From NCBI GenBank assembly GCA_021819125.1, contig JAKARW010000008.1, forward strand, positions 1 to 45,432: a stretch of DNA of 45,432 nt. The letters are read 5' to 3'. The position numbers and the translations under genes are program-made. The notes beneath the pieces were generated by a model. The model was not told the DNA's origin, ran no database searches, and saw only the letters and a program-made list of their open reading frames with translations. Source of the stretch: Pseudomonadota bacterium (lineage in GTDB: Bacteria > Pseudomonadota > Gammaproteobacteria > Acidiferrobacterales > Acidiferrobacteraceae). Below, piece after piece: positions 26,178 through 35,800 of this stretch (its first letter is position 1; the number at the start of each line of letters is the position of its first letter).

Positions 26178-26188
26178 TACGCGCGTCT

Positions 26189-26262
26189 TGCGGGAGATGG
26201 CATGCCTCCCTTAACCGCCCTCGCGGCTGATGATGCCTACGATTTCCGGGAATCGGAAATGT
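26189..26262 (+). promoter_or_regulatory. Fluoride riboswitch (crcB motif)
   Basis: The aptamer core is GGGAGATGGCATGCCTCCC (26192-26210), then TTAACCGCC, a short GGCTGATGATGCCTAC segment ending near 26240. This follows the crcB-motif consensus closely: the GATGG bulge, the AACCGCC pseudoknot strand and the CTGATGAxxCCT terminus. Directly after it, ATTTCCG-GGAAT-CGGAAAT (26242-26260) forms a 7-bp hairpin that could be the expression platform. The three downstream genes are fluoride exporters and a DUF190 protein, which fits. Fluoride binding is expected to turn expression on. Confidence 0.88.
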
Positions 26263-26351
26263 GGGTGCGTTTAGCTGTCTACTGCCCCCAACCGATCCCA
26301 TGCCCTCACGGGCCCGACTAATCCCGCGCCTTGACCGCCTGAGGAGAAACG

Positions 26352-26723
26352 GTGACTTTTTTGTGGATCGCCTGCTTTGCCGTGCTTGGGGCATGGTTGC
26401 GTTATGGGCAGAACCTGGCGGTGCAACATTTTTTCGGGCGGGCCTTTCCGTGGGCTACGCTGTCGATCAATGTCATAGGCTCTTTTCTCATAGGTCTCCT
26501 GTCGTACGCGCTCGTGCATGAAATCCCTGTGAGCGGGGCCCTGCGCGCTGGGGTCATCGTGGGCGGCATCGGCACTTACACGACCTTCTCCACCTTCTCG
26601 CTTGAAACCCTGCTCCTCGTGGAAGACGGACAAGTGGTGCGCGGTCTTGCGTACATCGTGGCATCACTTGCCCTTGGGCTTGGCGCGGTGTTTCTTGGGG
26701 CGCTTACCGCGCCTCACCTTTAG
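26352..26723 (+). CDS. crcB: Fluoride exporter subunit CrcB/Fluc (first copy)
   Basis: 123 residues, four TM helices. The central motif GGIGTYTTFSTFS with NVIGSF identifies Fluc, the dimeric fluoride channel. GTG 26352 has GAGGAG about six bases upstream. A second, diverged crcB lies downstream (27122), so the channel may be a heterodimer of oppositely oriented subunits. Confidence 0.92.
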   Translation: MTFLWIACFAVLGAWLRYGQNLAVQHFFGRAFPWATLSINVIGSFLIGLLSYALVHEIPVSGALRAGVIVGGIGTYTTFSTFSLETLLLVEDGQVVRGLAYIVASLALGLGAVFLGALTAPHL

Positions 26724-26742
26724 AGGGGGATCGGAGGAACGG

Positions 26743-27054
26743 ATGAAGGATATCGAAATCGCGCGCATTTATATTCGCGAGGGCGACCACGAAGGCGGCC
26801 TCGACGTCATGAAACAGATCTTCGCTTTGCTCCAGGATCAGCACAAGGTCCAGGGGGTCACGGTGTTCCGCGGCATCTCCGGGTTTGGGGTCCATGGCGA
26901 GATTCACGCCGCAGACCTCCTGCACATGACCGCGCGTCTGCCGCTCGTCATTGAATTTTTCGACACACCCGAGACGGTCGCCGCGGCGCTTGCCGTGCTC
27001 GCACGACTCATTCCCTCTGGACACATCGTCAAGTGGCCCGCGCGATGCCTGTAG
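26743..27054 (+). CDS. DUF190 family protein
   Basis: 103 residues, soluble, with ARIYIREGDHEGG, then GVTVFRGISGFGVHGEIH and LPLVIEFFDTPE, the pattern of DUF190 (a PII-like ferredoxin fold). DUF190 genes often neighbour crcB; their role in fluoride resistance is not established. TCGGAGGAA precedes ATG 26743. It lies between the two crcB copies. Confidence 0.88.
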   Translation: MKDIEIARIYIREGDHEGGLDVMKQIFALLQDQHKVQGVTVFRGISGFGVHGEIHAADLLHMTARLPLVIEFFDTPETVAAALAVLARLIPSGHIVKWPARCL

Positions 27055-27121
27055 TGCACCGGCCCACACCGCGCATTGACGCCATGATGCGACCATTCAA
27101 GACCGCGCGTGGGCGGCGCCC

Positions 27122-27505
27122 ATGAAGACCCTGGCGTTCATCGCGGTATTTGCGATCCTCGGGGCGATCGCCCGTTATCTGCAAGCGCTCCTCGTGGCGC
27201 AGGTTGCAGGCGGTCTCTTTCCATGGGACATCCTATCGATCAACCTCCTCGGCTCATGCGCGATGGGCTTTCTGTTCTTCGAGACCCTGGAACGTATCAG
27301 CCTAAGCCCCGAGCTGCGCACCGGCCTGCTCACGGGCTTTCTGGGGGCCTATACCACCTTCTCGACCTACACCTTCGGCGTCCTTGGGCTTCTCGAACAT
27401 GGGGCCTGGGCCATGGGCATGGCCTATCTCCTGGGGTCGGTGGTGCTGGGTCTCGCGGCCACGGCCTTTGGCGCCTGGCTATCGCGCAGCGTCTCGGGCG
27501 AATAG
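27122..27505 (+). CDS. crcB: Fluoride exporter subunit CrcB/Fluc (second copy)
   Basis: 127 residues, four TM helices, with NLLGSCAMGF and GFLGAYTTFSTYTFG. It differs clearly from the first copy and is likely its partner in a heterodimeric Fluc channel. It starts 67 bases after the DUF190 gene with little SD, so translation may be weak or coupled. Confidence 0.92.
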   Translation: MKTLAFIAVFAILGAIARYLQALLVAQVAGGLFPWDILSINLLGSCAMGFLFFETLERISLSPELRTGLLTGFLGAYTTFSTYTFGVLGLLEHGAWAMGMAYLLGSVVLGLAATAFGAWLSRSVSGE

Positions 27506-28742: not shown

Positions 28743-29438
28743 TCAATGGTGGGCCGCGGTCCTGCCAGGGCTCGTGCGTGCGGCCGCCATCGCTCTGGGC
28801 GCCGTCAGGTAGTCGGCGAGGCCCGCGACCTCATGGTCGCTCAAAGGGTTGGCATAGCCTATCGCCCGCGTGCCCCGGACCCCGGCCAGGATCTCCACGA
28901 CAAGATCGGTCGGACTTTCGCGGTGCGCGAGCACAAAGAGGTCGGGGACCGGGCTTCCGGGACCGGTCGCGGCATGACAGGTCGCGCACAAGTGCGTGTA
29001 GAGAAAGCGGCCCTCGCGCCACCGGCGCCCGCGCGGGCGCAACGGCAGGATGCCGCGCAGATCCACCGGAAATTGCCGCCGCAGGGCTTGCATCTGCTGC
29101 CATACCACAGGCATCGCGTGGCGCGCTAGGGCCTTGCGGGCCGTCTCGATACGGGCCTTGATCGGTCCTGCGCGACACGAGGCCTTGGCGCAATAGGATC
29201 GCGCCTCGAAGCCAAGCACCCCCAAATCGCTCTGGATGCGCGCGATGAGTCGCACCGACGCGTGATCTGCGGCCGCCTGATGCGCCTCATGCGCAAGCAA
29301 CGCCACCTCTAATCGGAAACGCATGTCGCGATCGGCGTTCGCCAGAAGCGGCACCAGCACCGCGGCAAGCCACACCATCGACAGGCGGCGGGCGCGAGGC
29401 GGGCGCGCCCGGGGATGGCGGCCGATTCCGTGTCTCAC
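28743..29438 (-). CDS. Periplasmic mono-haem c-type cytochrome
   Basis: 231 residues. An N-terminal basic stretch and hydrophobic core ([15 protein letters not shown], residues 21-35) act as signal. One haem site CATCH is at 151-155 in a class I-like domain ending [13 protein letters not shown]. The distal Met is not obvious. The first half has a Cys pair (CAKASC, 83-88) and a helical region of unknown fold. I chose GTG 29438, overlapping the upstream gene stop as GTGA; ATG 29378 would start at the hydrophobic core. It is the last gene of the sulfur operon, suggesting electron transfer from the system. Confidence 0.75.
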
Positions 29439-29653
29439 ACGGTCACGACGACATCGCTCGCCAGGATGGCATCGAGCACCACATCCCACTCATGCTCGGT
29501 AAGCTTCGGGCGGCGCAGATCATGACGGGACAGCTGATGCGCCGCCGGCGCCCGTTCCAGGACCACCAGCGCCCCTTCCAGGGTCTCCCTGTCGGGGAAA
29601 AGATCCGTCTCCAGAACCGCGATGCGCATGACGCCTTCCTCCGGATGTTTCAT
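29435..29653 (-). CDS. Small hypothetical protein in sulfur operon
   Basis: Up to 72 residues. ATG 29653 overlaps the preceding stop (ATGA), but ATG 29629 has a strong GGAGGAAGG SD; the latter gives 64 residues, starting MRIAVLETD. It is soluble, with beta-alpha pattern and no Cys. No family recognised. Overlap at both ends (ATGA upstream, GTGA downstream) ties it to the neighbours. Confidence 0.6.
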   Translation of the reverse strand: MKHPEEGVMRIAVLETDLFPDRETLEGALVVLERAPAAHQLSRHDLRRPKLTEHEWDVVLDAILASDVVVTV

Positions 29654-29925
29654 AGCGAAATGACGGCCTCGGCGGTCGCCAGCGCGGCGGCAAGCCCGGC
29701 GGTATCGAGATACGGCAGGCCTTGGTCGGGGACCGTGGTCTCCGGCAGCACATCGGCGAGTTCGAGACTCTCGGCCTGCACGGCGTTTTCCGGCGTGTCG
29801 GCGACCGGCCCCCCCATAAAGATCAGGCGCACGGCATGACCGAATATCGTAAGCCCGGCGGCCACGCGCATGGCCTCCGTGTGGTCATGACGAGCGAGCA
29901 CCACCAGCACCTTCGGCGCGCCCAT
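29650..29925 (-). CDS. DsrE/DsrF-like family protein
   Basis: 91 residues. VLVVLARHDHTEAMRVAAGL followed by HAVRLIFMGGPV is the first half of a DsrE/TusC-like alpha/beta fold. It lacks Cys, so it cannot carry sulfur itself and could be a structural partner, as DsrF/H-type subunits can be. Three bases separate it from the preceding DsrE-like gene. Confidence 0.6.
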   Translation of the reverse strand: MGAPKVLVVLARHDHTEAMRVAAGLTIFGHAVRLIFMGGPVADTPENAVQAESLELADVLPETTVPDQGLPYLDTAGLAAALATAEAVISL

Positions 29926-29928
29926 GGC

Positions 29929-30216
29929 TTAAAGGCTCACGATGCGCCGCGCGACCGCGGCCATGGCGCTGTTCTCGGTCTGGCTCCCAAGCGGGATGAG
30001 CGAATCGCCCTGCCCGAAACACTCCCACGAATGTTCGCAAACCGCCGAGCCCGGGCCGGCGCGCAGGCAGGCTGCGATCTCTGGATCCGCGGCAAGCTGC
30101 GCCGCGGGGCCGGTAAAAAAACAGCCGCATTGAATCTGGCGGCGCTCACAGGCGCGCAGAAAGCCGCGCAACAGGGGCGCCGATTCGGTTTGCGACACGA
30201 GAAACAAAATATCCAC
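29929..30216 (-). CDS. Cys-rich DsrE-like protein
   Basis: 95 residues from GTG 30216, which has AAGGAGG five bases upstream and shares a base with the upstream stop (TAGTG). VDILFLVSQTESAPLLRGFL is a DsrE-type first strand and helix. Cys occur in QCGCFF, AACLRAG and VCEHSWECFG; CGC sits where DsrE proteins place their sulfur-accepting Cys. Assignment is by fold pattern and context; sequence similarity is weak. Confidence 0.5.
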   Translation of the reverse strand: MDILFLVSQTESAPLLRGFLRACERRQIQCGCFFTGPAAQLAADPEIAACLRAGPGSAVCEHSWECFGQGDSLIPLGSQTENSAMAAVARRIVSL

Positions 30217-31100
30217 TAGCGCCTCCTTGTCATGCGCCACACAAAAACCACGAGGGCAGCACCCGCCAACGCCGCCGCGAGTGCCTTGTCCGGGGCCGAT
30301 AGTCCCCCGAAAGGACCGCGCCGCGTTCGCATAGCGCGCGCCTGCGCCCAGTCCTGCCAGCCGCCGATGAATACCTGCGCGGGCACCCCGAGCATCCGAA
30401 GCCGCGCGAAATAGGCCACCGACTCATAAGGCCCCGCACCGTACGCGACTACCGGCCGCCGGACCGAGATCAGGCTACGCAAGGCCCCCTGATCGCGCGT
30501 GACATCGGCCATCGGCAGGGATCGCGCCGTGGGGATATGACCGCGCCTTTCATATCGCTTGTAAGACCGTCCATCCACCAGACGGGGTCCACCCCTGCCC
30601 CGCCGTAGGCGCGCGGCCAGTTCGGGGCGCAACACCACAAGTCTTGTGCGCGGCCAGGCCGTGTAAATGGCCTCACGAAACACCCCACGGGTCGTCCCGG
30701 CGCCGGCGGCCTGCGGATGGTGCGAAAGCCACGCGCTCAACGGGCCTTCCACCACCTCCACCCGTCTTTGACCGGCGATATACAACATGCCGGCCACGAA
30801 ATCCTCGCGCAGCTGCCGGTTGCCGACCACCACCGCGGTCTCGGCACCGGTCAACCTCAGCGCCCCCAGGAACCAACGAACGTTCCGCCAACTCGCCAGA
30901 CGGCCGCGCGCGGTCAGAAGCGTGCGCGGGCTCACGCAAAGCCCACCTGCGACCGACTGGCGCACACACGCCCCGCGGCGGCGCGTGTCTACGACTACGC
31001 TCTGCGAAGGCAGCGGCCACGGCATGTGCGATCGCGCCACGAGCGCCCTTGGCGCGGCCGCATGCCTTGTGACAAGCACCGGCTGCGGCGCGGCATGCAC
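30216..31100 (-). CDS. Membrane-anchored tandem rhodanese-like protein without catalytic Cys
   Basis: 294 residues from GTG 31100, which lies two bases after the preceding stop. Two rhodanese-like domains are seen: residues about 35-125 (VVVDTR ... VVEGPLSAW) and about 172-252 (RLVDGRSYKRYERRGHIPTA ... FIGGWQDW). In each the active-site Cys is absent: VVVGNRQL in the first and VVAYGAGPYES in the second, where YC would be expected. A C-terminal TM helix (272-288) ends in an Arg-rich tail. It is probably a binding or scaffold protein and not a sulfurtransferase. The open frame extends upstream but there overlaps another gene. Confidence 0.68.
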   Translation of the reverse strand: MHAAPQPVLVTRHAAAPRALVARSHMPWPLPSQSVVVDTRRRGACVRQSVAGGLCVSPRTLLTARGRLASWRNVRWFLGALRLTGAETAVVVGNRQLREDFVAGMLYIAGQRRVEVVEGPLSAWLSHHPQAAGAGTTRGVFREAIYTAWPRTRLVVLRPELAARLRRGRGGPRLVDGRSYKRYERRGHIPTARSLPMADVTRDQGALRSLISVRRPVVAYGAGPYESVAYFARLRMLGVPAQVFIGGWQDWAQARAMRTRRGPFGGLSAPDKALAAALAGAALVVFVWRMTRRR

Positions 31101-31102
31101 CG

Positions 31103-31468
31103 TCAGCAGCCCCCGATCTTCGGCAGGCGCGGCACGAATGCCCCGCCTCGAGCCGGCGGCGGGTTCTGGAGGTAGTAATTCACGAGTTCGCGGACGGTTA
31201 CGGTCCCGTACAGGCCACCCATGGGAATGGGCGCGAATCGCCCCATGGTCTGCGGGGTCTCCGCACGTCTTATCAGCCCCGGCGACACCGAGGCCGCGCG
31301 CATCAGAAACGACATACCGACCACCACCAAAAGGATGCATGAGCCGCAGTAAAGCCAAATTTGCCTCGGCGTCATCGCCCCGCCCCCGGTGGCCGCGGGA
31401 CGCACTTGCGGCACTGGGCAACCGGTATCCGGCAAGGTCACCCCATGAAGCCACTCTTTCACTGTCAT
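31103..31468 (-). CDS. Single-TM protein of unknown function (sulfur operon)
   Basis: 121 residues with GGAGG before ATG 31468. One TM helix (about 38-58, WLYCGSCILLVVVGMSFLM) and a C-terminal part with TVTVRELVNYYLQNPPPA. That motif resembles NVDRLAQYYKGN in the 89-residue neighbour at 31584, so the two look like paralogous subunits. Cys at 17, 41, 44 and the C-terminal residue. Family not recognised. Confidence 0.6.
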   Translation of the reverse strand: MTVKEWLHGVTLPDTGCPVPQVRPAATGGGAMTPRQIWLYCGSCILLVVVGMSFLMRAASVSPGLIRRAETPQTMGRFAPIPMGGLYGTVTVRELVNYYLQNPPPARGGAFVPRLPKIGGC

Positions 31469-31482
31469 AAGACCTCCCGCTC

Positions 31483-31575
31483 CTAGAACACGTCCGTCGT
31501 CAAAGCCACATAGAGCACATACATCATGACGACGAACATGACAATTTGCGCGATCGTGGGCACATTGAAAACCAT
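31483..31575 (-). CDS. 30-residue transmembrane peptide
   Basis: 30 codons with a strong GGAGG SD before ATG 31575. A single helix fills most of it (VPTIAQIVMFVVMMYVLYVA), with a short tail TTDVF. It lies between the two paralogous single-TM genes in the same operon. Small TM peptides often stabilise membrane complexes; a partner role here is inferred. Too short for most gene callers. Confidence 0.6.
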   Translation of the reverse strand: MVFNVPTIAQIVMFVVMMYVLYVALTTDVF

Positions 31576-31583
31576 GAATCCTC

Positions 31584-31853
31584 CTAGTGGCCGCCGTTCT
31601 TCACGACGGCCGGCTTTTCGACGGCATAGACGCCGGCGGCGACATTGCCCTTATAGTACTGGGCGAGCCGATCGACATTCAGCGGCTTGCCGTTGACGGG
31701 ATTTATGACAGGCGGCGTGAAGTAGGCGACCCCGTCGCGCGTACGGTGCAGATAGGCCGGAGGCATGGCAAGGATGTATACAAAGGTGCCGACGGTCATG
31801 AGACCGGCCATCACCGCCATTCCCAACATCTGCTTTTGACCGACAGGAAGCAT
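31584..31853 (-). CDS. Single-TM protein of unknown function (sulfur operon)
   Basis: 89 residues with AGGGAGGG before ATG 31853. One TM helix (about 10-31), then an outside-facing domain AYFTPPVINPVNGKPLNVD, AQYYKGN and a tail rich in Val/Ala. The segment LNVDRLAQYY parallels VTVRELVNYY in the 121-residue gene two genes downstream. No Cys. Family not recognised. Confidence 0.62.
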   Translation of the reverse strand: MLPVGQKQMLGMAVMAGLMTVGTFVYILAMPPAYLHRTRDGVAYFTPPVINPVNGKPLNVDRLAQYYKGNVAAGVYAVEKPAVVKNGGH

Positions 31854-31866
31854 GGCACACCCTCCC

Positions 31867-32181
31867 TTAGTTCTTGCGCACGTAGACGCACCAGTGACGA
31901 TCGGCCTTGACGGTCCCAAGATGCGTACCGTTAACCGCCGCCATCACCGTCGGCAAGGCCTCCATGGACGTCGGGTTATCCACCCTGACCTCTATCACCG
32001 CCCCCGACGCCGCCTCGTTCAAGGCCTTTTTGGTCATGAGCTGCGGGCGTGGGCACGAATCCCCCAATACATCCACCACGCGGCTTATAGTGTAGGTGGT
32101 CCCGTCCTCCAGAGTCACTTGCGCGACAGGGGCCGCCGGGGCGGTAGGGGAAGGGGTGGCTTTACGGTTGAATAGACCCAT
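31867..32181 (-). CDS. tusA: TusA-family sulfur carrier protein
   Basis: 104 residues. The TusA core DVLGDSCPRPQLMTKKAL carries the active Cys in the CPxP motif, followed by EVRVDNPTSMEALPTV. An extra N-terminal segment of about 35 residues (KATPSPTAPAAPVAQV) is Pro/Ala rich and absent from standard TusA. It accepts sulfane sulfur and passes it on. It lies directly after the second YeeE/YedE gene, a common pairing for sulfur import. Confidence 0.88.
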   Translation of the reverse strand: MGLFNRKATPSPTAPAAPVAQVTLEDGTTYTISRVVDVLGDSCPRPQLMTKKALNEAASGAVIEVRVDNPTSMEALPTVMAAVNGTHLGTVKADRHWCVYVRKN

Positions 32182-32185
32182 GACA

Positions 32186-32890
32186 TTAATCTCCAAGAGT
32201 AGGTAGGGCGGCCGACGGATCGCGGGCATCGGTGGCGGTCTTGGCGAGCGCCGGGGATCCGGCCGCCATGGGTGCGGCCACCGACGATGGGACCTTGCCC
32301 TCGGCCGCGAGTGTGGCGCGCTCGCGTTTCAGGATACGCCAATACAGACCGTAGAGCGCGGCGGTCTGAATAAGACCGAAAAAGATCGCCGGTATCCCGG
32401 TATCGCGCTGCAAGGTCAGGGCATCGGCCCAGCCAAACTGCAGGCCGGCGGCATTCGAGTGCCCGGTCATGGTCTGTCCGGCAAGCGGCCAGTAGGAAAA
32501 CGACCACATGAGCGAGGACAGAAACAGGCCGACGATAAGAAAGAGCAGGGCCCACAAAGCGCCGATATTGCCCTCACCCGTCTTGACCCACGACGATACC
32601 GTGCATGCGCCAGCGAATACCATGCCGATACCAAAGAGAAACAACCCGATGAATTGGTTGATCCCGACATCAAAGCGCATGGGATTGCCGTTACCGAAAC
32701 TGATCATGGCCGTAAAGCCCACGGTCAGGATCATCATGGCCACCAGCAAGGCCTTGGTGTTGCGATAGCTCTTAAAGAGCATGGCATCGCGCAAAGCCGC
32801 GGTATTGCACCAGCGCGATCTTTGCACGAGCACCCCGACGGTGGACCCGAAAACAAAAGCCGCCAAGCACTGGCCGTCTACAGTAATCAT
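32186..32890 (-). CDS. YeeE/YedE-type sulfur transporter, long half
   Basis: 234 residues, about five TM helices, with VFGSTVGVLVQRSRWCNTAALRD (conserved Cys) and GIGMVFAGACTVSSWVKTGEG (GAC Cys motif), the YeeE/YedE signatures. The C-terminal 45 residues are a hydrophilic Ala/Pro tail. Its partner half is the gene at 32894. Members import thiosulfate or move sulfur to TusA-type carriers. GGAGG lies nine bases upstream of ATG 32890. Confidence 0.85.
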   Translation of the reverse strand: MITVDGQCLAAFVFGSTVGVLVQRSRWCNTAALRDAMLFKSYRNTKALLVAMMILTVGFTAMISFGNGNPMRFDVGINQFIGLFLFGIGMVFAGACTVSSWVKTGEGNIGALWALLFLIVGLFLSSLMWSFSYWPLAGQTMTGHSNAAGLQFGWADALTLQRDTGIPAIFFGLIQTAALYGLYWRILKRERATLAAEGKVPSSVAAPMAAGSPALAKTATDARDPSAALPTLGD

Positions 32891-32893
32891 AAA

Positions 32894-33388
32894 TCAGGCC
32901 TCCAGGATTTTCTTGTACACCCAGGTCCCGACCCACGCGCCGATCACAAGGCCGCTCACCGCCAAGTAACCGCCGAGATTCATCTCCGGCGTAAGACCGA
33001 GAAAGGTGCTGACGTTACAGACGAAAGACAAGCGGATACCGATACCCATGAGCAGCCCGCCGATGGTGATCATCACCCACTCCGACAGATGCTTCGGGAC
33101 CCGCCAGTAGAACTCCTTGCTCAAGATCGCGCTCACAAGGGCGCCAAATCCCATGCCAAGACTGATGTAAATCTTCCAATAGGCCCACGTCGGCTTGAAT
33201 ACCATGCGCCAAAATGGAATGCGGTTCATCGCCTTGGCGCCGATCAGGGCCTTTACGAACAACCCCGCGATCATCGTCTCACCGCCGCCCACGGTCCACG
33301 CGCCGACGATTTGAAAGAGAAAGATGTCGAATACCGCAATGATCGCCAACGCGACTATGGGATCCAGAGACTTCTTGAAAAAATCCAC
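32894..33388 (-). CDS. YeeE/YedE-type sulfur transporter, short half
   Basis: 164 residues, about four TM helices. GIGIRLSFVCNVSTFLGLTPE has the family Cys near a helix break. I chose GTG 33388, with GGAGGG upstream; the longer frame upstream is non-conserved. It and the next gene look like a two-subunit YeeE/YedE channel of the PmpAB kind, in which the usual full-length protein is split. It is the first gene of the sulfur operon. Confidence 0.82.
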   Translation of the reverse strand: MDFFKKSLDPIVALAIIAVFDIFLFQIVGAWTVGGGETMIAGLFVKALIGAKAMNRIPFWRMVFKPTWAYWKIYISLGMGFGALVSAILSKEFYWRVPKHLSEWVMITIGGLLMGIGIRLSFVCNVSTFLGLTPEMNLGGYLAVSGLVIGAWVGTWVYKKILEA

Positions 33389-33916: not shown

Positions 33917-34252
33917 TTAACCCGTGCTCCAGCCGCGCGGCCTTCGCATGCCGGCGACCTTGCAGGCCTGTTTCACATAGCCGTAGGGGAACAGCTCGAA
34001 GAGACGCGCGCGGGCCTTGGCGCCCATCCCGCGTTCCGCTAAATGGCGGATCGCAAAACGGGCGTCGGGAATCACCTGATGTTCGTCGAAAAACGCCCGC
34101 ATGAAGCGGATGACATCCCAATGGTCATTATCCAAAGCCAACCCCTCGGCGCGCGCCAACGCCTCGGCCACGGACTCGTTCCAATCCCCGGGGTCGACCA
34201 GGTAACCCTCGTCATCGGTAACGACACGCACACCCCCCACACTCATCTCCAT
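33917..34252 (-). CDS. DsrC/TusE-like protein lacking the C-terminal Cys
   Basis: 111 residues. The helical core (ALARAEGLALDNDHWDVIRF, then FFDEHQVIPDARFAIRHL) is DsrC/TusE. The C-terminal arm reads YVKQACKVAGMRRPRGWSTG: the upstream Cys (C97, CysB of DsrC) is kept but the penultimate Cys (CysA), the site that makes the trisulfide, is Trp108. Such variants lack the normal chemistry and may be regulatory or use C97 alone. AGGGGGG lies just upstream of ATG 34252. It is on the same strand as, and 530 bases upstream of, the YeeE/YedE operon. Confidence 0.82.
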   Translation of the reverse strand: MEMSVGGVRVVTDDEGYLVDPGDWNESVAEALARAEGLALDNDHWDVIRFMRAFFDEHQVIPDARFAIRHLAERGMGAKARARLFELFPYGYVKQACKVAGMRRPRGWSTG

Positions 34253-34888: not shown

Positions 34889-35005
34889 CGCGCGGCCTTA
34901 GGGCCTGTCCCATGAAGGGGCATAGGAAGACAGCGGTCCCGACACCACGATGGTGTGGCTCCTCCCGTGCCCGGATATCGTCATATGCGCGCAATTGGGG
35001 GGAAT

Positions 35006-35800
35006 ATGTGGAAAACGATTCAACATCTGCACATGGCGGACGCCCCGGATGTCGTTCCGCCGAACGTGCTTGCCGCCTCGTACGAGCGATGCCGTGTATA
35101 TGACGTGTGTGAGACCAAGCGGCACATTGGAGATATCCTCGGGGATGGGGAAACCCGAAATTTTCTCCAGCAAAATGGCAAGCTTGTCGCCTATGGACAT
35201 ACGGTCGTCAAGGAGTACGTCGGCGACATAAAGGAGGCCTGCGACCTTTTTGTTTTCACCGACACCGAAGGCCGCGTATTGGGCGTTTGGTCACGCACGG
35301 AGATTGTGTCCGCGGCAGGCAGTATCGGTCTTAGGCCAGGGGCGTCACTGGCCGAGAGTAGCGCCGGAACCAATGCCGTGGCGCTTGCGCTCGTGGCGCA
35401 AGGTCCGGTGATCTTAAAGGGCGAGGAGCACCTCTGTCGCATATTCCGCGATTGGACGTGCGTGGCGGTACCGGTCATAGGCGTCGATGGGGCACTCATC
35501 GGATGTCTCGACATCTCGGCACCCGAAGGCCCGATCTATGAGAAATTGGCCTTGGCGCGATCCATCGCGCGGGAAATCGGGCGACTCATAGGCAACAAGA
35601 TATCGTTTGGCGGGATTACGATACGTCAACGCGAGGTGCTTTCGCTTTTTGCTCAGGGGGTGAGCTATAAAGGGATCGGGACCATACTCGGCATTTCTGT
35701 CAAGACCGTGGAAGAGCATCTCGACGCGGTACGCATCAAGATGGGCATGAAAAACCGGCGCGCCTGCATCAAGAGGGCGATCGAGATGGGTATCCTGTGA
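35006..35800 (+). CDS. Regulator joining AcoR-type GAF domain and LuxR-type HTH
   Basis: 264 residues; GGGGGGAA precedes ATG 35006. The N-terminal half follows the AcoR-like sensor pattern: LAASYERCRVYDV, then LAESSAGTNAVALAL and EEHLCRIFRDWTCVAVPV with GALIGCLDIS (GAF). In AcoR-type proteins this precedes an AAA+ sigma-54 activation domain; here it is joined directly to a C-terminal LuxR-type HTH (TIRQREVLSLFAQGVSYKGI ... VKTVEEHLDAVRIKM). It is therefore a sigma-70 type regulator with a sigma-54-activator-like sensor. Ligand and targets are unknown. Confidence 0.78.
   Translation: MWKTIQHLHMADAPDVVPPNVLAASYERCRVYDVCETKRHIGDILGDGETRNFLQQNGKLVAYGHTVVKEYVGDIKEACDLFVFTDTEGRVLGVWSRTEIVSAAGSIGLRPGASLAESSAGTNAVALALVAQGPVILKGEEHLCRIFRDWTCVAVPVIGVDGALIGCLDISAPEGPIYEKLALARSIAREIGRLIGNKISFGGITIRQREVLSLFAQGVSYKGIGTILGISVKTVEEHLDAVRIKMGMKNRRACIKRAIEMGIL

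Follow-up and report, generated by a model that had tools for sequence, protein, structure and literature searches.

How sulfane sulfur in the periplasm reaches the cytoplasmic reverse-type dissimilatory sulfite reductase (rDsr) pathway is poorly understood, or its route is merely presumed (PMC11582611, PMC6397845). A concrete candidate for this route is encoded on contig JAKARW010000008.1 of a Pseudomonadota bacterium of the Acidiferrobacteraceae (assembly GCA_021819125.1), where positions 28743–33388 of the 45,432-nt stretch analysed here (the window) carry eleven genes on the minus strand, in transcription order yeeE1, yeeE2, tusA, tm1, pep30, tm2, rhd, dsrE1, dsrE2, small and cytc. An earlier note, made from the letters of the window, had taken them for an undescribed sulfur-trafficking membrane operon. 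Their fixed order, invariant cysteines and tight tie to dsrAB make the cluster a candidate for the route, and small membrane proteins that had so far gone unannotated, one of them a peptide of 30 residues, can be named as its candidate parts. We infer transport, and put at roughly 55% the probability that the cluster encodes a sulfane-sulfur importer of the PmpAB/YeeE type, equipped with loading parts of its own in the periplasm and with a TusA–DsrE relay feeding rDsr.

The eleven genes are a real block, the order of which is strongly conserved across three proteobacterial classes. A search with tm1 matched 18 of 96 genomes, the window's own included, and the same gene order was found in 17 relatives, representing three genera in all: ten members of the window's genus (among them L049, titled Acidiferrobacter sp.), two from outside the genus but within the family, and five from another family of the same order, one of whose loci ends early at a contig end. 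Inside the genus the cluster loci also have their flanking genes in common, whereas outside it the flanking genes change and the block stays constant, which rules out chance clustering or mere genus-level synteny. When named genomes were scanned with yeeE1, 63 loci emerged, many of them from alpha-, beta- and gammaproteobacterial sulfur oxidisers such as Thiobacillus, Magnetovibrio, Rhodobium, Marimonas and Ca. Thioglobus; the carriers span SUP05-type, magnetotactic, phototrophic and acidophilic bacteria. At 48 loci the downstream DNA reaches 5.6 kb or more. All 48 contain yeeE1, yeeE2, tusA, tm1, tm2, dsrE1 and dsrE2; rhd is present at 47 of them and cytc at 46, and the lower counts for small (41) and pep30 (37) possibly run low because both genes are short and easily overlooked. 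In evenly drawn samples, carriers (own genome counted) amount to 10 of 369 genomes of the class and 2 of 398 of the phylum, and every tm1 match in these samples adjoins tusA and, where the contig extends far enough, yeeE as well.

These observations bear directly on the earlier note, which had listed the eleven open reading frames in the order in which they indeed occur, all on the minus strand. It had treated them as one system, to be abandoned if the order proved unconserved or the transmembrane (TM) genes scattered; in the class and phylum samples tm1 always lies beside tusA, and the order is kept. Of its description of the junctions, the overlaps stand, but the largest gap is about 14 bases with the starts chosen here, not 16. 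As a whole, its interpretation is partly supported.

The cluster tracks the rDsr pathway, and its tie to sulfur oxidation is strong. Either dsrA or dsrB scored over the cut-off in 37 of 40 carrier genomes (dsrA in 34, dsrB in three more), the remaining three being draft assemblies, and soxB did so in 34 of 42. In the even class sample, dsrA exceeded the cut-off in 8 of the 10 carriers versus 112 of the 369 genomes overall (Fisher p 0.0015, or 0.004 with the window's own genome removed; because the genomes are related, these values are indicative only). The window's own genome encodes soxB and, on contig 37 (L112), an rDsr operon comprising dsrA, dsrB, dsrE, dsrF, dsrH, dsrC and further dsr-type genes, where names other than dsrA and dsrE were assigned by sequence reading.

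At the head of the cluster stand two half-size transporter genes. yeeE1 (32894–33388, GTG start) encodes a PmpA-like YeeE/YedE protein of 164 amino acids that matches the C-terminal half of Pfam PF04143 (69 bits, profile positions 172–310), and yeeE2 (32186–32890) a PmpB-like protein of 234 amino acids that matches the N-terminal half (78 bits, positions 1–124). Cys124 of the former is kept in 64 of 64 aligned sequences, and Cys28 and Cys96 of the latter are both kept in 61 of 61. They are followed by tusA (31867–32181), specifying a sulfur carrier with a CPRP motif (Pfam TusA, 59 bits), the Cys43 of which is retained in all 62 aligned sequences. Together with the Pfam match of the terminal cytochrome c (32 bits), these scores bear out the identities that had been proposed for the four proteins.

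Three small single-TM proteins come next: tm1 (31584–31853; TM segment 12–30), which belongs to no known family, the 30-residue microprotein pep30 (31483–31575) and tm2 (31103–31468). Along with dsrE1, dsrE2 and small, they make up the six proteins of the cluster without a Pfam family. Ratios of non-synonymous to synonymous polymorphism (pN/pS) are far under 1 for pep30 (0.16, within the genus), the core of tm2 (0.28), tm1 (0.30) and small (0.36); for pep30, this value and the existence of relatives in alpha-, beta- and gammaproteobacteria rule out a spurious reading frame. Gly-Cys forms the C-terminus of the tm2 protein in every sequence of two alignments (41 of 41 and 60 of 60), mostly as -GGC. 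Its 31-residue N-terminal extension was found in the window's genus and is not present in that form in distant relatives. At the divergent BMS3Bbin13 locus (L107:9542–10278), tm1 also ends in -APTGC, as tm2 does, and from this shared ending the two proteins may be paralogues or have an arm function in common.

Behind rhd lie three genes of which the earlier note had called the first possibly DsrE-like. That suggestion is borne out by the AlphaFold model of dsrE1 (29929–30240; pLDDT 91), which superimposes on DsrE of A. vinosum (2hy5_A) with a VIA Z score of 11.5 and a root-mean-square deviation of 2.1 over 95 residues; its ten best VIA matches include DsrE, YchN, TusBCD and DsrE/F-like proteins, and the first unrelated entry follows at Z 5.9. 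As modelled, dsrE1 is thus a DsrE-fold protein over its full domain. Its cysteine is invariant in 40 of 40 sequences, and a weak profile match places it near the canonical DsrE cysteine; we infer that it is functional. The Cys-less dsrE2 (29650–29925) is possibly DsrF-like, with canonical DsrF as its top profile match (E 0.001, probability merely 22%). For small (29435–29653), AlphaFold predicts a three-stranded, half-Rossmann alpha/beta protein (pLDDT 87), a possible but unproven DsrH counterpart; Foldseek and VIA listed no specific fold match and no DsrH-type entry for it, which leaves a DsrH type possible, and when dsrE2 and small were searched as profiles against the PDB, only chance matches came up.

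The protein encoded by rhd (30216–31100) is rhodanese-like (Pfam Rhodanese, 44 bits) and carries a C-terminal TM anchor (269–287). It had been described as a dead, Cys-less tandem rhodanese. The catalytic cysteine is indeed missing in both domains, the loop reading YGAGPYES or an equivalent, but the protein is not devoid of cysteines: the pair C45/C55 is kept in 55 of 56 sequences. As for the tandem arrangement, Pfam supports the second domain, and the first was assigned by pattern alone. Outside the genus, most loci have an additional gene, generally located between small and cytc, for an exported rhodanese of tandem type, and both such sequences examined (Thioglobus and Magnetovibrio) have the active loop CNTGHWA. 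This gene was invisible to the earlier note, as was a ribbon-helix-helix (RHH) regulator, because both lie in the relatives' loci and outside the window. The window's own genome has an exported rhodanese with the CNTGHWA loop on contig 88, away from the cluster, so that loss of the active enzyme is ruled out. The last gene, cytc (28743–29489, the start possibly at 29378), encodes a probably exported mono-haem cytochrome c of the CBB3 type, whose N-terminal part belongs to no known family. CxxCH is present in 50 of 50 sequences, N214 in 41 and P215 in 47, so that Asn-Pro occupies the site where class I cytochromes usually carry Met-Pro; that the asparagine serves as a haem ligand is a guess. 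Two Ca. Thioglobus loci (L100 and L104) are arranged differently: the genes for the cytochrome and the exported rhodanese do not follow small but are placed upstream, on the other strand.

Assembled, these parts suggest an inner-membrane conduit that would bring sulfane sulfur, as persulfide, polysulfide or thiosulfate, from the periplasm to the cytoplasm for oxidation by rDsr. YeeE1 and YeeE2 would together make up a single channel, in the way suggested for PmpAB, with tm1, pep30 and tm2 as putative accessory subunits, the tail of tm2 acting as a periplasmic arm that offers sulfur to the channel. The arm would be loaded by the anchored rhd protein, through its cysteine pair, and by the exported active rhodanese, and cytc would accept the electrons of this oxidative loading. 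On the cytoplasmic side, TusA may take over the sulfur and pass it to DsrE1, with dsrE2 and small completing a DsrEFH-like set, and from there toward DsrC and DsrAB. Every proposed relay site (yeeE1, yeeE2, TusA, DsrE1, tm2 and rhd) has an invariant cysteine, which supports such a relay.

Several observations weigh against this importer. Canonical dsrE is present in all tested carriers but one and in non-carriers too, so that the DsrE set of the cluster is an unexplained addition; its presence in 79 of 80 genomes, carriers and non-carriers alike, rules out that the cluster set replaces canonical DsrEFH. No profile match links small to DsrH. With the chosen start, rhd has no clear signal peptide, and charge balance gives weak support for a periplasmic position of the tm2 tail. 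A complete genome, G317, carries the cluster together with soxB but has no dsrAB, and most of the dsr-positive gammaproteobacteria sampled are without the cluster. A more ambitious version, in which the cluster would be the missing transmembrane sulfur importer of a broad subset of rDsr oxidisers, with a split YeeE channel and a membrane-anchored tm2 arm onto which rhodaneses and a cytochrome c without the usual Met ligand would load sulfur oxidatively, is one that we regard as tentative and rather doubtful. No sulfur transporter in the literature consulted is described as working by such a mechanism.

The periplasmic components might instead be the heart of the system, with rhodanese, tm2 and cytochrome c forming a complex that oxidises thiosulfate or polysulfide while YeeE and TusA merely clear its products. 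The Cys-bearing tail of tm2 and the cytochrome are reminiscent of SoxY and SoxXA, an exported active rhodanese accompanies the cluster in most relatives, and soxB co-occurs with it; conservation, however, peaks in the membrane halves (81–99% identity for yeeE1 across three genera) and not in the cytochrome (35–44% between genera), and Pfam recognises no Sox domain in the cluster, so that we consider this explanation unlikely. Still less probable in our view is a sulfur-sensing module like SoxT1B/SoxR of Hyphomicrobium, in which a small flow of sulfur by way of YeeE to TusA would inform a repressor, here the RHH protein, and would not serve metabolism. SoxT1B provides an experimental precedent (PMC11582611), and a divergent RHH_4-type gene adjoins the cluster in many relatives outside the genus. 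However, this gene does not accompany the cluster in the window's genus or in Thiobacillus L078 and L079, two rhodaneses, a cytochrome and a relay through DsrE would be superfluous in a sensor, and the strong tie to dsrAB also speaks for metabolism over sensing. Detoxification by export of surplus sulfane sulfur is very improbable, since, even if the direction of transport is not readable from sequence, import is the function described for the characterised members of the YeeE family (PMC11582611, PMC11073785) and the carriers are sulfur oxidisers.

Around the cluster, a scan for promoters and terminators gave nothing above chance, and a search of a plasmid collection gave no match. A DsrC-like protein is encoded at 33917–34252 on the minus strand (Pfam DsrC, 107 bits), a conserved neighbour in the genus and not part of the core. 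Of the two DsrC cysteines it retains one, its C-terminus reading KQACKVAGMRRPRGWSTG, and a canonical DsrC is present besides on contig 37; Magnetovibrio has a similar gene close to its cluster (L105:15049-15372). A LuxR/GerE-type regulator gene (34955–35800, plus strand, opposite to the cluster) is a conserved neighbour in the genus only. On the other side, at 26184–27505 (plus strand), a fluoride riboswitch (RF01734, 51 bits) is followed by crcB, a DUF190-like reading frame and a second crcB-like gene, which we read as a fluoride-resistance cassette adjoining the cluster.

How does the cluster compare with known systems? In the open-access literature we found no description of this assembly, which may be described elsewhere. 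The claim that it is undescribed may stand for the full assembly but not for its parts, as clusters of YeeE/YedE, TusA and DsrE (PMC13293266, PMC13047784) and half-YeeE pairs (PMC11582611) have already been described. The nearest described systems are the YTD cluster, PmpAB and SoxT, and the defining features of PmpAB, TsuA, SoxT and SoxY that were tested are not all present. The yeeE halves do not qualify as a TsuA thiosulfate transporter: they score no higher than 55 bits against NF052577 and 61 bits against NF041049, where NCBIfam sets a cut-off of 400 or 645. With SoxY, which ends in GGCGG, tm2 shares a C-terminal Gly-Gly-Cys, possibly a sulfur-carrying arm, but it has no SoxY domain, is membrane-anchored and has the cysteine as its last residue.

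Members of the YeeE family take up thiosulfate or sulfane sulfur in cooperation with TusA-like proteins (PMC11582611, PMC11073785). PmpA and PmpB of Serratia and relatives, of about 130 amino acids and with one conserved cysteine each, are a half-size pair corresponding to the C- and N-terminal YeeE halves, for which a heterodimer has been proposed (PMC11582611). The two genes of the window match the same parts of PF04143, but their products are longer, yeeE2 has two invariant cysteines where one is reported for PmpB, and the genomic setting is another. SoxT1A and SoxT1B of Hyphomicrobium denitrificans likewise import sulfur as YeeE-family proteins, whether it is then oxidised dissimilatorily or serves in signalling, and a short single-TM protein is encoded nearby there too (PMC11582611); in contrast to the two half genes here, SoxT1 and SoxT2 are single transporters of 330–350 amino acids, and SoxT1A/SoxT1B are tied to sHdr and SoxR, whereas the window's cluster is tied to rDsr. 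The YTD cluster, yeeE-tusA-dsrEFH of type II in cable bacteria and other Desulfobacterota (PMC13293266, PMC13047784), similarly unites a YeeE-family transporter, TusA and DsrE-type proteins, including a DsrE subunit with a conserved cysteine. DsrEFH takes sulfur from TusA and hands it to DsrC (PMC13293266), and sulfur import with relay to DsrC is proposed for both clusters, the type II DsrEFH having been compared with the DsrE-type set here by its published description. Type II occurs mostly with reductive dsrAB (PMC13293266), whereas in the window's genome a dsr operon includes dsrEFH genes of its own. The window's cluster differs further in its two YeeE half genes and in additional genes for the small TM proteins tm1, pep30 and tm2, for the membrane-anchored protein resembling rhodanese and for a cytochrome c, to which its relatives add an exported rhodanese and an RHH regulator.

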